Source: Streptantibioticus silvisoli
GTDB lineage: Bacteria; Actinomycetota; Actinomycetes; Streptomycetales; Streptomycetaceae
Assembly (NCBI RefSeq): GCF_027947535.2
Contig: NZ_JAAGKO020000009.1
Span: forward strand, 124,001-188,000
Length of the DNA: 64,000 nt
Direction: 5' to 3'
The notes under the pieces were generated by a model. The model was given only the letters and a program-made list of their open reading frames with translations. It did no database searches and was not told the origin of the DNA. Position 1 is the stretch's first letter. Each line of letters begins with the position of its first letter. This document shows, piece by piece, positions 25,609 to 31,705 of the stretch. The position numbers and the translations under genes are program-made.

Positions 25609-26555
25609 GACGGCACCCCCTCCGCGGTCCGCACGATCCGCGCGGTCCACGCCAGCCCGGCCCACTCCAGCGCGGCCCCCACGACCAGGCAGGCGAACCC
25701 GACCGCGGTGCGGAACAACACCCGCAACGGATCGGCGCCCAACGACACGCCGAGCAACACGCCGAAGGCCGGCAGCAGCGCGAGCATCGCGGCCGTCACC
25801 TTGGGGCCGGCCAACTGCGCGCGCAGGTCCTCACGTTGGCTTCGTTCTGCTCTCAGCGAGGCGGCCACCCGGTCCAGCCCGTCCGCGAGACCGGCGCCCC
25901 CGTCCACCGCCACCTCCCAGCAGACGGCCACAGCGGCCAGTCCCTCCGCCCCGAGCTGCCCCGCCGCCTCACGCAACGCCGACGGCACGTCGCCGCCGAA
26001 CCGGGCCGCCGCCAGCAAGGGCGTCAACGCCGCCCACCCCTGCGCCACATCCGTCCCGCGCAGCCGCTCGACCGCCTCGGTCAGCACCAGCTCCGGTGGG
26101 CTGCCGGCCCGCAGTTCACCGGCGAGCGCCGCGCACAGCCCGGCCACGGCCTCCTCGCGCGCCTCGCACGCCAACCGCTGCTCCCGGCACCGCAGTCGGC
26201 GCCCCACGCACGGCACCGCCACCGCACCGGCCAGCAACGGAACCGGCGAACGGGCCGCCAGCGCCAGCAGAAGCCCTGCCGGCAAGCACAGCGTCTCCGG
26301 GCCGATCCGGGCCCCCAGGCGGCGCTCCAGGCGTTTCTTGCCCCGCCCGTACGCCGCCACCAGCACGGCCCGCACACGCACCGCCCGTACCTCCGACCCC
26401 CGGCCCGGTCCCGACGCAGCGGTCGCCCGCTCCGATCCGGTGCCGGTCAGCAACAACCGCACCCTGCGCGCCGCGCCGGCCCGGCGGTGCAGCGCCCACA
26501 CCGCGACCATCGCCACCCCCGCCACGCTCCACGCTGCGGCCAGCTCCGCGTCCAT
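25605..26555 (-). CDS. Type II secretion F-domain protein (TadB-like)
   Basis: A 316-residue membrane protein. The ATG at 26555 shares a base with the tadA stop (TGATG). It has an N-terminal transmembrane helix (AAWSVAGVAMVAVWALHRR) and two helices at 95-130. The F domain contains ALAGELRAGSPPELVLTEA, AARFGGDVPSALREAA, DGGAGLADGLDRVA and a final hydrophobic pair (AAMLALLPAFGVLLGVSLG). It is the predicted partner of the TadC-like protein. Confidence 0.85.
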   Translation of the reverse strand: MDAELAAAWSVAGVAMVAVWALHRRAGAARRVRLLLTGTGSERATAASGPGRGSEVRAVRVRAVLVAAYGRGKKRLERRLGARIGPETLCLPAGLLLALAARSPVPLLAGAVAVPCVGRRLRCREQRLACEAREEAVAGLCAALAGELRAGSPPELVLTEAVERLRGTDVAQGWAALTPLLAAARFGGDVPSALREAAGQLGAEGLAAVAVCWEVAVDGGAGLADGLDRVAASLRAERSQREDLRAQLAGPKVTAAMLALLPAFGVLLGVSLGADPLRVLFRTAVGFACLVVGAALEWAGLAWTARIVRTAEGVPS

Positions 26556-27859
26556 CACCGCATCCCCCGCCCGCACAGTTCCGCGAACCGCCGCCAGCCG
26601 CGCTCGCGTTCGAACCGGCCGTCCGTACTGCGCACCACCGCCGGAACGGTGGCGACCAGTCCGGCCGCGTCGCGTTCCAGCACGTGCAGCTCCGACAGCC
26701 GCCGGCGGCCCGCACGGTCCCGGGCCAGATGCACCACCACCGACAGGGCGGACGCCAACTGGCTGTGCAGCGCCGCCCGTTCCAGCCCGGCGGTCGATCC
26801 CAGCGCCTCCAGACGCGCCGGGACGTCGCAGGCCGCGTTGGCGTGCACCGTGCCGCAGCCGCCCTCGTGCCCGGTGTTCAACGCGGCCAGCAGATCCAGG
26901 ACTTCGGGCCCGCGCACCTCGCCGACCACCAAGCGGTCCGGCCGCATGCGCAGTGCCTGCCGCACCAGGTCCCGCAACGTCACCAACCCGACGCCCTCCT
27001 GGTTGGCGGGCCGGGTCTCCAACCGGACGACGTGCGGATGAGCGGGCCGCAACTCGGCGGAGTCCTCGGCCAGCACGATGCGTTCCCCATGCCCGACCAG
27101 GCCCAGCAGCGTGCTGAGCAACGTCGTCTTCCCGCACCCGGTGCCGCCGGAGACCAGGAACGACAACCTCGCGTCGACCAGCGCCCGCAGCAGTGCCGCC
27201 GCCTCCGCGTCCACCGTGCCCGCGTCGGCCAGCTCTTCCAGGGAGAACGCCCGCGCCCGCACCACCCGCAGCGACACGCACGGCGAACCCACCGACACCG
27301 GGGGCAGCACCGCGTGCATCCGGGTCCCGTCGGGCAACCGCGCGTCGACCCAGGGCCTGGCGTCGTCCAGCCGCCGCCCCGCCGCCGTGGCCAGCCGCTG
27401 CGCCAGCCGGCGTACCGCCGCCGCGTCACGGAAACGCACCCCGGTCCGCTCCAGCCCGGCCCCGCGATCCACCCAGACCTCGTCCGGCCCGTTCACCAGC
27501 ACATCGGTGACGCCCGGCTCCAGCAACAGCGGTTCCAGCAGGCCGGCGCCGACCATCTCGGATCGCAACTCGCGCACCACACCGAGCACCGCCGTGTCAC
27601 CCAACAGCCGCCCTTGCGACCGCAACGCGGCGGCGACCCGGGCCGGTGTCGGCTCCTGGCCGGACTCCGCCAGCGTCAACCGCACCGCGTCCAGCAACGC
27701 GGCGCCCTCCGTCTCCGGCCCGGCCGCACCCTGCGATCCGTAAGCCCCGGCCGCCGGAAGTCCACCCGATGGAGTGAACCCGCTCCGTCCGCCCACCTGG
27801 CCGGTGATCGCGGCGGAGTGCGCAGGCGCCGTCTCGGCGGTGTTGTCGTAGCCGTTCAT
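26555..27859 (-). CDS. tadA: TadA/CpaF-type pilus assembly ATPase
   Basis: A 434-residue hexameric ATPase of the VirB11/CpaF group. N-terminal domain blocks are VTDVLVNGPDEVWVDRG and RLDDARPWVDARLPDGTR. The Walker A motif is SGGTGCGKTTLLS (about 240-252), then the Asp box VLAEDSAELRP, Walker B RPDRLVVGEVRGPE and the His box GHEGGCGTVHANAACD. It powers pilin extrusion. The start overlaps the ssd stop by 4 bp. The first 50 residues are Gly/Ala-rich and poorly conserved. Confidence 0.94.
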   Translation of the reverse strand: MNGYDNTAETAPAHSAAITGQVGGRSGFTPSGGLPAAGAYGSQGAAGPETEGAALLDAVRLTLAESGQEPTPARVAAALRSQGRLLGDTAVLGVVRELRSEMVGAGLLEPLLLEPGVTDVLVNGPDEVWVDRGAGLERTGVRFRDAAAVRRLAQRLATAAGRRLDDARPWVDARLPDGTRMHAVLPPVSVGSPCVSLRVVRARAFSLEELADAGTVDAEAAALLRALVDARLSFLVSGGTGCGKTTLLSTLLGLVGHGERIVLAEDSAELRPAHPHVVRLETRPANQEGVGLVTLRDLVRQALRMRPDRLVVGEVRGPEVLDLLAALNTGHEGGCGTVHANAACDVPARLEALGSTAGLERAALHSQLASALSVVVHLARDRAGRRRLSELHVLERDAAGLVATVPAVVRSTDGRFERERGWRRFAELCGRGMR

Positions 27860-28911
27860 GCTGGCACGCTGCCGTCGCTGCGCAGGGCACCCGCCAGGAA
27901 CGACGTGCAGAACTTCGCCAGCGGCCCGCGCACCTGCGATCCGGGCGGCGCACCGGAGTCGACCGCTTCCGCCAGCCCCTTCTCCACGCCGAGCGCACCG
28001 GCCGACGGCAATCCCAGCAACCGGGCGATCTCATCGCCGTCCAGCCCTGCGGGGAACGGACCGCGCGCCACCACCCGCAGATCGCGCAGCACCATGCCGA
28101 CCCGGGACGCCACCCGGTCAGCGGCGGCGATCGCCCGCAGTTCCGCCGGTACGACCATCAGACCGACGTCGGTCTGCGACAGCGCCTCGATGACCGCCTC
28201 GTCCACCCGGCGGGGCAGGTCCACGACAACCACCCCGCCACGCCGCCGTGCCGCGCCCAGGACCGAGCGCATCGCCTCCGGTGTGATCACGACCGCGTCG
28301 GACCGGTCCCAACTGAGGACGCTCAGGTCGTGCAACCGCGGCAGCGACTCCTCCAACGCGCCGGAGCTGACGCGGCCCTGGGACTCGGCGAGGTCCGGCC
28401 ACCGCAGCCCGCTGACACTCTCGGCACCCAGCAGCACGTCCAGGCCGCCGCCGAGCGGATCGCCGTCAATGAGCATCGTCCGGTGCCCCTGCCGTGCGGC
28501 CGTGACCGCCAACGCGCAGGCCAGCGTGCTGGCGCCGGCGCCACCGCGGCCGCCCACCACGCCCACGGTGAGCGCGGTCTCCCCCACGCCCTCCCCGGCA
28601 TCGGCGATCAGGTCCACCAGCCACGGCTCGGCATCCGGCAGGAAGAGCACGTGGTCGGCGCCGATCACCACGCCACGCCGCCACACCTGCGAGTCGTCGA
28701 GGTCACGTCCGACGAGCAGCACACCGGACCGCCGCCGCATCCTGCGCAGCCCGTCCGCGCAGTCGTCCCCCACCAGCACCAGCGGTGCCGACTCCCAGCT
28801 GCCCGGGTCCGGCGGCGGCCCGAAGGACACCTCCGGCTCGACACCGGCGGCTGCGCACAGACGCAACAGGTCGTCCAGCAAAGCCTCGTCTTCCGTGACG
28901 ATCAACGGCAT
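27856..28911 (-). CDS. ssd: Septum-site-determining/CpaE-like ATPase (Ssd)
   Basis: A 351-residue MinD/ParA-superfamily protein. The N-terminal receiver-like part (MPLIVTEDEALLDDLLRLCA) is followed by a P-loop-like TVGVVGGRGGAGASTLACAL, LIDGDPLGGGLDVLLG and VVVDLPRRVDEA. The P-loop reads GGRGGAGAST, with Ala instead of the second Lys, a degeneracy known in the CpaE/Ssd group. Relatives localise Tad pili or interfere with septation. The ATG at 28911 begins the conserved part; GTG 28917 is close. The same frame stays open to 29883, adding up to 324 Pro/Gly-rich residues, so the 5' end is uncertain. Confidence 0.83.
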   Translation of the reverse strand: MPLIVTEDEALLDDLLRLCAAAGVEPEVSFGPPPDPGSWESAPLVLVGDDCADGLRRMRRRSGVLLVGRDLDDSQVWRRGVVIGADHVLFLPDAEPWLVDLIADAGEGVGETALTVGVVGGRGGAGASTLACALAVTAARQGHRTMLIDGDPLGGGLDVLLGAESVSGLRWPDLAESQGRVSSGALEESLPRLHDLSVLSWDRSDAVVITPEAMRSVLGAARRRGGVVVVDLPRRVDEAVIEALSQTDVGLMVVPAELRAIAAADRVASRVGMVLRDLRVVARGPFPAGLDGDEIARLLGLPSAGALGVEKGLAEAVDSGAPPGSQVRGPLAKFCTSFLAGALRSDGSVPA

Positions 28912-30159
28912 CCCCACCGGTCGTCCCCCGGCCCGCGGCGCGGTCCGCTCACCGTCAGCGGAGTCACCGTCCGGACGACGGCCGGGGTGATCCCGCTCCG
29001 GCGGTGTGGCGTAAGGCTCGGGCAGCCGATCGGAAGCCGACGTCCGCGCCCACGACGGCAGCGGCGGTGGACGCAGGGGCTCTTCGCCGTATCCGGCTTT
29101 TTCGACGCCCGGGTCGGTGAGGTCTCCTGCCGGGAATGTCGTGCGGCCAAGGGCCGGAACGGTTGACGCCCCGGTGTTCGTTGACCCAGACGGTCCGGCC
29201 TCCGCCTGTGGCGCGACCGGTTGCGCCGACTCGGCCACGGGGGCCGGTCGGGCCCTCGAAGCCGCCGGGACAGCCGAGTTGGTCCGGTGATCCGGGGTCC
29301 TCCGAATCTCCCCGACAGCTGGAACGTCCGAGCCCGGCGGCTTCTCGTCGTTCACGCAGGACAGGCGGATGTCGTCGGCCTGGAAGACGGCGAAGTACTC
29401 GATGTCGCTCTCCGGGACGAGGCCGATGCCCGCCTCGCCGGCACCGCAATTCGCACCGGGATCGGTGCCGAAGTCGGGCTCGCTGTCCTCCCACTCCTGC
29501 CACACGAGCGGGGCCGGCTCGGGGGGAAGTACGGATGCTCCACATGAGCGCGGCGCAAGGGCCTCACCGCCGTCCGTGCCGCTGTCGGCGGACGACTGCT
29601 CCGGCGCCGAATCAGCGGGGAGGCACGAGGTGGCGCGGGGGCCGGAGGAAGGCGGAGGGGCGCAGGCCCACGGCCGGGGCTCACCTCCGTTTGCAGCCGG
29701 GCCGGACAGCCCGCGCGGATCGCACAGGCCGCCGGGCCTCGACGGGCTCGGTCGACCACCATGCGCGACCGTCCTCGCGGGGACAGTCCGTTTTACCCCG
29801 CACCGTCCCAAGTCCGGTTTCAGCGCGCTTCGTTGAATACTCCCGGCGCCTTCAGGCCTGCCGGTCGGCATGGATTCGAGCATGACCCCTCACTTCTCTC
29901 GTTAGAGCCGCGAACTTCGCGTGCCTTCACAGTGAAGGGAGATCTGTAATCGTGGTGATCTTGGTGAAAAACAGGGGAAAACCCAGTGCTTGTGGAGAAC
30001 TTCGCCACCCGGATGGGTGACTTCTCGACAGACGGGCAACGATTACGCAGGGTCACGCGTCATACCTGAGACAAGACCGAGCGGAACCAGGGGGAAGAAG
30101 AAATGACCGGCTTCGTGGCACCTGCATCGACCATTCGAGTGGTCGGAAAGGCATCCGGA
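28912..30159. other. 1.2-kb region upstream of ssd, coding status unclear
   Basis: No recognised gene. The ssd frame remains open across 28912-29883. Most of it has mixed third positions, but 29352-29530 uses almost only G/C-ending codons and reads like protein (VWQEWEDSEPDFGTDP, IEYFAVFQADDIRLSC). From 29890 to 30060 the sequence is less GC-rich and contains the dyad CCTTCAC-A-GTGAAGG at 29924-29938, suitable for an operator. This stretch probably holds the promoter of the pilus operon. Confidence 0.4.
29924..29938. promoter_or_regulatory. Candidate operator dyad upstream of the ssd-tad operon
   Basis: The 15-bp palindrome CCTTCACAGTGAAGG is perfect around a central A. It lies in a relatively AT-rich stretch with several in-frame and promoter-like elements nearby. 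The binding protein is unknown. Confidence 0.35.
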
Positions 30160-30250
30160 CATGCGACGACCCCCGCCGGGGGGGAGAGCGGGGGTCGTCC
30201 CCACGGCCGACTCGGGGGGGAGGAGCCAGCCGGGTTAGCACGGTCGCGAA
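30160..30250 (-). ncRNA. 6C RNA motif
   Basis: Read on the minus strand there are two consecutive hairpins with C-rich loops. Hairpin 1 (30231-30205) pairs GGCTGGCTC with GAGTCGGCC, allowing G-U pairs, around the loop CTCCCCCCC. Hairpin 2 (30199-30165) pairs GACGACCCCCGC with GCGGGGGTCGTC perfectly around TCTCCCCCCCG. Two stem-loops each with at least six C in the loop define the actinobacterial 6C RNA. From memory, 6C genes lie near chromosome-partitioning and pilus-assembly genes, which fits the ssd-tad operon here. Hairpin 2 may also terminate the transcript. The 5' end is not determined. Confidence 0.82.
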
Positions 30251-30332
30251 CGATCCGTGACTTCCATGGTGTACCCGAAGGCCTTCTCAGGCAAACCCAC
30301 GCGCCAGGGCTTACGCCGAATGGTGGGTGCCT

Positions 30333-31157
30333 ATGCTCGTCATCGTGGAAAACCACCCCTTGCCGCGGACCGCCGCCTTCTTTGATCTCGACAAGACGGT
30401 CATCGCGAAGTCGAGCACGTTGGCCTTCAGCAAGTCCTTCTATCAAGGCGGCCTGATCAACCGTCGGGCGGTGCTTCGCACGGCCTACGCCCAGTTCGTC
30501 TATCTGCTCGGCGGCGCCGACCACGACCAGATGGAGAGGATGCGCGAGTACCTCTCGGCCATGTGCCGGGGCTGGAACGTGCAGCAGGTCCGGGAGATCG
30601 TCGCCGAAACTCTGCACGACCTGATCGACCCCCTGATCTACGACGAGGCCGCCTCGCTCATCGAGGAACACCACGCGGCCGGACGTGACGTGGTCATCGT
30701 CAGCACCTCGGGAGCCGAAGTGGTCGAGCCGATCGGCGCGCTCCTGGGCGCCGACCACGTGGTCGCGACCCGCATGGTCGTCGCGGACGGCTGCTACACG
30801 GGCGAGGTCGAGTACTACGCCTACGCGGACACCAAGGCCGTGGCAGTCGCCGAACTGGCCGCCTCACAGGGCTATGACCTGGAGCGCAGCTACGCCTACA
30901 GCGACTCCGCGACCGACGTCCCCATGCTCTCGTCCGTCGGGCATCCGTACGCGGTCAACCCGGACCGGGCCCTGCGTCGCGAAGCCGTGTCACGCGGCTG
31001 GCCCGTACTGGTCTTCAACCGGCCCGTCCGACTGCGCCAGCGCGTTCCGGCCATGCCCAGCCGACCGGTGCTGGCCGCCACGGCGGCGGCCGGTGCCGTG
31101 CTGACCGCCGGCCTGGTCTGGTACATGTCCCGGCGGCGGCGACCAGTGCTGTCCTGA
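30333..31157 (+). CDS. HAD-IB family phosphatase with C-terminal membrane anchor
   Basis: A 274-residue protein. HAD motif I is AFFDLDKTVI (about 15-24), motif II VVIVSTSGAEV, then DTKAVAVAELA with the Lys, and motif IV SYAYSDSATDVPML. This is the phosphoserine-phosphatase-like HAD-IB group. The last 30 residues contain a transmembrane helix (AATAAAGAVLTAGLVWYM) and an Arg-rich end, so it should be tethered to the membrane. Relatives in Streptomyces have been annotated as associated with morphological differentiation. The substrate is unknown. ATG 30333 or GTG 30327 is the start, behind GGTGGG. Confidence 0.85.
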   Translation: MLVIVENHPLPRTAAFFDLDKTVIAKSSTLAFSKSFYQGGLINRRAVLRTAYAQFVYLLGGADHDQMERMREYLSAMCRGWNVQQVREIVAETLHDLIDPLIYDEAASLIEEHHAAGRDVVIVSTSGAEVVEPIGALLGADHVVATRMVVADGCYTGEVEYYAYADTKAVAVAELAASQGYDLERSYAYSDSATDVPMLSSVGHPYAVNPDRALRREAVSRGWPVLVFNRPVRLRQRVPAMPSRPVLAATAAAGAVLTAGLVWYMSRRRRPVLS

Positions 31158-31705
31158 AGTCACCTATTCGGAACCGATCACGTCCATTTGCTACGAAAGA
31201 AATACTTGATTATTGAATAAGAGGAAAAGCAAAAATCCGAAACCAGGGGTTCCGCTTCCTCTTCCCGGGGAGTAGAAAGGAATCAACGGCCCGCGAGACC
31301 ACGGACATCCGAGAGGATCCCGTCGATCAGGCCCACGGACCGAGCACGAACGCCGGGCACCCACGCGAAGCCAGCCCGCTGACCGGGCGGACGCACAGGT
31401 TCAAGGGGCCGAAATCCCCGCCTGATGGGTCAAACGAGTGCACGCATGGTCACTTGGCGCACGTGCCAGCGGCGGCATCCTCTGGGTGCCGCCGCCTTTG
31501 CGTACCGACAGGCGGCGACGATCCGGCCAGCCGAAGCGTTCGGGCCAGCCGCCACCGCTGACGTCCCGCGCACGACTGTCATCCCACGCCCGCTCGGCGA
31601 AACCACCCCGAGGCCCAGGTCATCCGTCCCCGCCGGCGATGCGGTGAGGGGCGGCGGGACGCCCGAGCAGCGCGGGTCAGCGGCCCGGCGGACTCGTCAC
31701 TGCCG
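31158..31705. other. 548-bp gap with an AT-rich island and a structured element
   Basis: No protein gene seen. About 31175-31250 is strikingly AT-rich for this genome (ATTTGCTACGAAAGAAATAC). At about 31219-31265 AAGAGGAA-aa-GC pairs with GCTTCCTCTT. At 31469-31500 a perfect 9-bp terminator-like hairpin stands. Between them an RNA of about 250-300 nt could be encoded on the plus strand. Confidence 0.5.
31469..31500 (+). terminator. Terminator-like hairpin with CTTTG tail
   Basis: GCGGCGGCA (31469-31477) pairs perfectly with TGCCGCCGC (31487-31495) over a 9-nt loop, followed by CTTTG. It is 312 bp past the HAD gene and convergent to the Fic-like gene. It could end the HAD transcript or a separate small RNA. 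Confidence 0.65.

Follow-up and report, generated by a model that had tools for sequence, protein, structure and literature searches.

The stretch of DNA analysed here (the window, 64,000 nucleotides) carries on its minus strand a short structured RNA between an ssd-tad operon and a divergently transcribed HAD hydrolase gene. The features on which the discussion draws are, in order along the window:

26555-27859, minus strand: tadA, encoding a T2SSE ATPase (PF00437, 1e-68)
27856-29883, minus strand: ssd-like gene, first of the ssd-tad operon, identified by weak ParA/MinD-type Pfam matches and synteny
29973-29999, minus strand: decayed DnaA-box pair (TTCTCCACA and TTTTCCCCT) with an 18-bp period, before ssd, identified from the sequence and from relatives
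30043-30055, minus strand: BldD-like palindrome TGACCCTGCGTAA, a suggestive but exact match to the consensus
30161-30235, minus strand: 6C RNA core of two hairpins with C7 loops, identified by its RF01066 score and fold z
30178-30184, minus strand: C7 run in predicted loop 2
30214-30220, minus strand: C7 run in predicted loop 1
30239-30259, minus strand: predicted 5' hairpin of the putative transcript, near-invariant over 37 family loci
30271-30296, minus strand: SigB-family type promoter GTTTGC-N14-GGGTAC, conserved in the order and matching SCO3557p
30327-31157, plus strand: divergent HAD hydrolase gene in the place of SCO3558 / Rv3661 (PF12710, E 6.7e-36)

A T2SSF protein is likewise encoded on the minus strand among the Pfam-identified neighbours. 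This agrees with the earlier note on this DNA, which had placed the RNA upstream of ssd-tad on the same strand with the HAD gene on its other side, and the arrangement is conserved among relatives. An ssd match lies at most 0.7 kb downstream, on the strand of 6C, in 66 of 70 oriented loci; among the exceptions it is 2.1 kb away in L087, L100 is out of place, and L101 and L005 have none, L005 being cut by a contig end. The divergent HAD gene is present in 60 of the same 70 loci, and each of the 40 loci that span 7 kb has tadA. Proximity to partitioning and pilus genes was reportedly remarked on when the 6C motif was first described. On the far side of the HAD gene, a non-coding stretch 3' of it (about 31220-31515) shows 70-82% identity in all 20 Streptomyces-like loci compared, in the same place as the 6S-like RNA scr3559 of S. 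coelicolor (PMC8539372).

The identity of the RNA is well supported. A cmscan of the whole window against Rfam matched RF01066 (6C) on the minus strand at 30235-30161 with 51.4 bits, above the gathering score of 47 (E = 0.00084), covering all 75 model positions (1-75), and this covariance check bears out the assignment to 6C made in the earlier note. The two stacked hairpins with seven C per loop that had been seen by eye are confirmed by the sequence and the predicted fold: they are adjacent (about 30234-30201 and 30199-30165), each with C7 in its predicted loop, as expected of a family with two hairpins and at least six C per loop. The actinobacterial occurrence and the place beside ssd and the HAD gene also accord with RF01066. 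The minus-strand fold of 30260-30150 has an energy of -61.2 kcal/mol, whereas shuffles average -48.78 (z = -3.14) and 3 of 200 equal or better it. The span of 30160-30250 originally proposed fits the RNA, but it omits the 5' hairpin at 30259-30239 and the promoter at 30296-30271; all 37 family loci have a hairpin of 5 bp or more at the 5' end. Genome-wide, the window locus is the single match to the 6C model above the cut-off; the next match, at 23.8 bits and E 2.44, was rejected as a second copy.

The RNA in the window is thus an ordinary member of the known 6C family and the orthologue of scr3558 of S. coelicolor, which adjoins SCO3558 (PMC8539372), and of mycobacterial B11/6C, which lies between Rv3660 and Rv3661 (PMC12395582). 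With RF01066 and scr3558 it shares the pair of C-rich-loop hairpins, the score above cut-off and the place beside the HAD gene upstream of ssd, although its loops are C7/C7 where the Rfam family has six C; with B11 it shares the synteny (Rv3660-Rv3661) and the two C-rich loops.

Matches to the 6C model were found in 37 of 41 relatives, the genome of the window included, and in 154 of 296 genomes of the class, counts from which the filters used lose weak matches. After removal of 6 duplicates, 94 loci from genomes with matches were studied in sequence. A weak second match, L002, was excluded from all counts; L098, L099 and L100, each lacking one clear C loop, were kept, L100 being probably not a true 6C. 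Both C runs fall within hairpin loops in 91 of the 94 loci. In a 34-sequence alignment, 7 of the 13 pairs of stem 2 show changes on both sides that keep the pair, and RNAalifold on alignment A1 found stem 2 but not stem 1, which was poorly aligned. Family f1, to which the window belongs, is probably Streptomycetaceae, judging by named Streptomyces with the same promoter and RNA; within it the C runs are C8/C7 in 27 of 37 loci and C7/C7 in 6, the window among them. Family f6 is taken for Mycobacteriaceae.

What could drive the expression of this RNA? Upstream of the hairpins the window has GTTTGC-N14-GGGTAC, which fits the SigB-family type (GTTT -35, GGGTAC/T -10, spacer about 14), with a probable transcription start near 30262. 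The motif GTTTG[CT]-N14-GGGTA[CT] precedes 6C in each of the 50 loci read from the order (37 of family f1, one of f2 and 12 of f3), where dinucleotide shuffles predict 0.045. All 50 have a spacer of 14, and from the end of the -10 to the Rfam edge there are 34-38 nt; in other families the strict motif is present in 2 of 20 loci, one of them the doubtful L100. The same element is known in S. coelicolor as SCO3557p, which in an E. coli two-plasmid system is recognised by SigB, F, H, K, L and M (PMC8346170, Table 2). The window shares with SCO3557p the -35, the spacer length, the -10 and the following ACCATGGAA, and differs from it at three positions of the spacer sequence. By analogy with this published work on the orthologue, the window promoter would be recognised by SigB-family factors.

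In print, SCO3557p is assigned to the operon SCO3557-3551, that is, ssd-tad (PMC8346170), whereas we read it as the promoter of 6C. That paper did not detect SCO3557p in vivo under osmotic stress, and its text contains no occurrence of small RNA, non-coding, sRNA or 6C RNA. In the genome collection, 27 contigs of named Streptomyces hold the exact published 45-nt SCO3557p string; each of the 27 has 6C directly downstream of it, and S. coelicolor itself is not among them. Identity of sequence and place suggests, therefore, that SCO3557p is the 6C promoter and that its first product would be 6C. Mycobacterial copies are different: 18 of 23 f6 loci carry TATAGT in place of the SigB-type promoter of the window, and TATAGT is the SigA-type -10 reported for B11 (PMC12395582). 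The control of 6C in mycobacteria thus differs from that in this order.

The published assignment of the promoter raises the possibility that 6C forms the 5' leader of the ssd-tad mRNA: a single long RNA would be made from the SigB-type promoter, and the hairpins would be processing remnants or an attenuator of the pilus operon. Besides the assignment in print, the proximity of ssd on the same strand in 66 of 70 loci speaks for it, as does the scarcity of U 3' of stem 2 in the family: the 10 nt after stem 2 contain on average 2.1 U in Streptomycetaceae-like loci, 5.2 in f2 and f3 and 4.3 in the rest, which leaves the 3' end in Streptomycetaceae-like loci unclear. The conservation profile points the other way. 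Mean identity across the 37 family loci, taken in 20-nt blocks, is 0.98-1.00 between 30275 and 30156, except for two lower blocks at hairpin 1 (0.67 and 0.92); identity then falls to 0.20-0.46 from 30155 to 30056 and returns to 0.47-0.59 from 30055 to 29956. The conserved 6C unit thus ends about 5 nt past the Rfam 3' edge, roughly 100 nt of unconserved sequence follow, and a second conserved unit precedes ssd. Also against a leader, orthologues have been observed as RNAs some 93-100 nt long (PMC12395582, PMC4046766) and act in trans (PMC10470900). We therefore consider the leader interpretation unlikely. Between a trans-acting RNA and a processed leader, which the earlier note had left undecided, the edges of conservation favour a separate RNA, with read-through into ssd-tad possible.

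That the hairpins are merely a transcription terminator or a DNA palindrome, their C loops having no regulatory role, is very improbable: the hairpin of stem 2 is indeed strong and made of G+C, and in B11 the active loop sits within the terminator (PMC12395582), but the C runs, which termination does not need, are kept in the loops of 91 of 94 loci, a dedicated conserved promoter lies immediately upstream, and regulation by the orthologue is lost when its loops are mutated (PMC10470900).

The explanation that we hold with considerable confidence is that of a 6C small RNA with its own SigB-type promoter, the C7 loops of which repress mRNAs bearing G tracts; the identity, structure, conserved promoter and conserved position of the RNA are the observed parts of it. 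A SigB-family type promoter would drive a minus-strand 6C RNA that runs from near 30262 to near 30160-30156, about 102-107 nt in all, and hence stops before ssd, apart from the ssd-tad message. With such a promoter, synthesis of 6C would be expected under stress and at sporulation. The C7 loops would pair with G-rich tracts at or near the ribosome-binding sites of other mRNAs, and this pairing would block translation of the target and promote its decay. A trans-acting role of this kind is the most likely one for the window RNA by analogy with B11: experiments on that orthologue show repression of targets through pairing of its C-rich loops with G tracts, either in 5' UTRs or beside ribosome-binding sites (PMC10470900, PMC12395582), which is the kind of pairing suggested in the earlier note. 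Rfam labels 6C as cis-regulatory, whereas the work on orthologues indicates action in trans. As for expression in related organisms, S. lividans transcribes 6C (PMC8079986), and in S. coelicolor its level is reported, with reference to earlier work, to rise during sporulation (PMC8388888, PMC4046766). Mutagenesis of scr3558 had no effect on S. coelicolor physiology according to a personal communication quoted in PMC8539372.

Possible targets were sought as G tracts ahead of start codons. The pattern GGGGGGAGRAG-N0-9-RTG produced 8 overlapping matches, located at 6 places, while its reverse produced 2; none of the 8 was accepted as a convincing gene start. The looser GGGGGGA-N3-9-ATG produced 63 matches against 32 reversed, a roughly twofold excess that ordinary ribosome-binding sites could cause. 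Thirty of these 63 places were read. Two genes, one WXG100-like and one GltD-like (names given by eye), were looked for in relatives. At E 1e-12 the WXG100-like gene was recovered in 3 of 41 genomes, that of the window included, and in all three (L177, which is C44 of the window's genome, L178 and L179) 5-6 G stand just before the start; in M. abscessus, B11 is known to target an ESX gene (PMC10470900). For gltD, six G before the start were found in 0 of 14 readable same-strand loci of relatives. Within these G-tract pattern searches and the two genes followed in relatives, no conserved 6C target was established.

The second conserved unit, between 6C and ssd, contains elements of another kind. 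The nonamer TTGTCCACA is a high-affinity DnaA box for S. coelicolor and M. tuberculosis (PMC4285127). On the ssd strand, an exact TTGTCCACA or TTATCCACA is present at most 450 nt from 6C in 44 of 94 loci, and on the other strand in none, against 0.28 expected from shuffles and 1/0 and 0/1 (same/other strand) in two control stretches. The order contributes 34 of these loci (out of 50), f6 contributes 3 (of 23) and the remaining groups 7 (of 21), which makes the element a strong one in this order and a weaker one outside it. Pairs of boxes with at most one mismatch each recur with a period of 18 bp (27 times) or 17 bp (7 times). A search of 292 class genomes for the combined pattern WTATYCACA-N9-TTRTCCACA found it 25 times, and its reversed form not once; by coordinates 18 of the 25 pairs lie just downstream of 6C, in 18 of the 27 f1 genomes searched. 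The 7 pairs away from the locus were considered as origins of replication, a reading that we rejected: their surroundings have 1-2 exact boxes per 4.1 kb, which is not oriC-like, and no reading frame with the DnaA Walker-type motif that was sought. Two of these off-locus pairs, in L171 and L173 (about 2.0-2.1 kb in), are near TetR-like, whiG-like and rpsB/tsf-like genes, named by eye. In the window itself, neither TTGTCCACA nor TTATCCACA occurs exactly between 6C and ssd, only TTCTCCACA; the pair has decayed to TTCTCCACA and TTTTCCCCT, and the element may thus be lost there. Among the open-access papers listed by literature searches, none showed a link between DnaA and ssd-tad.

Beside the boxes, at 30055-30043, stands the suggestive BldD-like site, judged by the consensus in PMC7374567. 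It shows a modest excess in the family, with 2 exact and 7 one-mismatch sites among 37 loci against 0.1 and 1.2 expected. The stretch from this site to the DnaA boxes holds a TCAC-N8-GTGA palindrome in 14 of the 37 loci of the family (0.2 expected), and the window has a related palindrome, TCACCCATCCGGGTGG, at 30005-30020 on the minus strand.

We tentatively hypothesize, while thinking it rather doubtful, that the interval from 6C to ssd-tad is a developmental checkpoint. A stress or sporulation sigma promoter would make 6C in this order; DnaA bound to the 18-bp-phased box pair, with the BldD-like site beside it, would gate the septum-site and pilus operon; and the control of 6C itself would have been rewired, being of a housekeeping type in mycobacteria and of a SigB-family type here. 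If this is true, the replication state would be coupled to division and surface structures.

The RNA itself is already known, and it is the assignment of its promoter and the DnaA-box pair that we regard as worth pursuing. A promoter with six cognate sigma factors would, by its sequence and place, be that of a small RNA, making the sigma dependence of 6C in Streptomyces directly testable, and its dissimilarity to the mycobacterial one would present a deeply conserved RNA with a changed switch. The conserved box pair before ssd-tad, in turn, may offer a testable link of replication to septation in actinobacteria.
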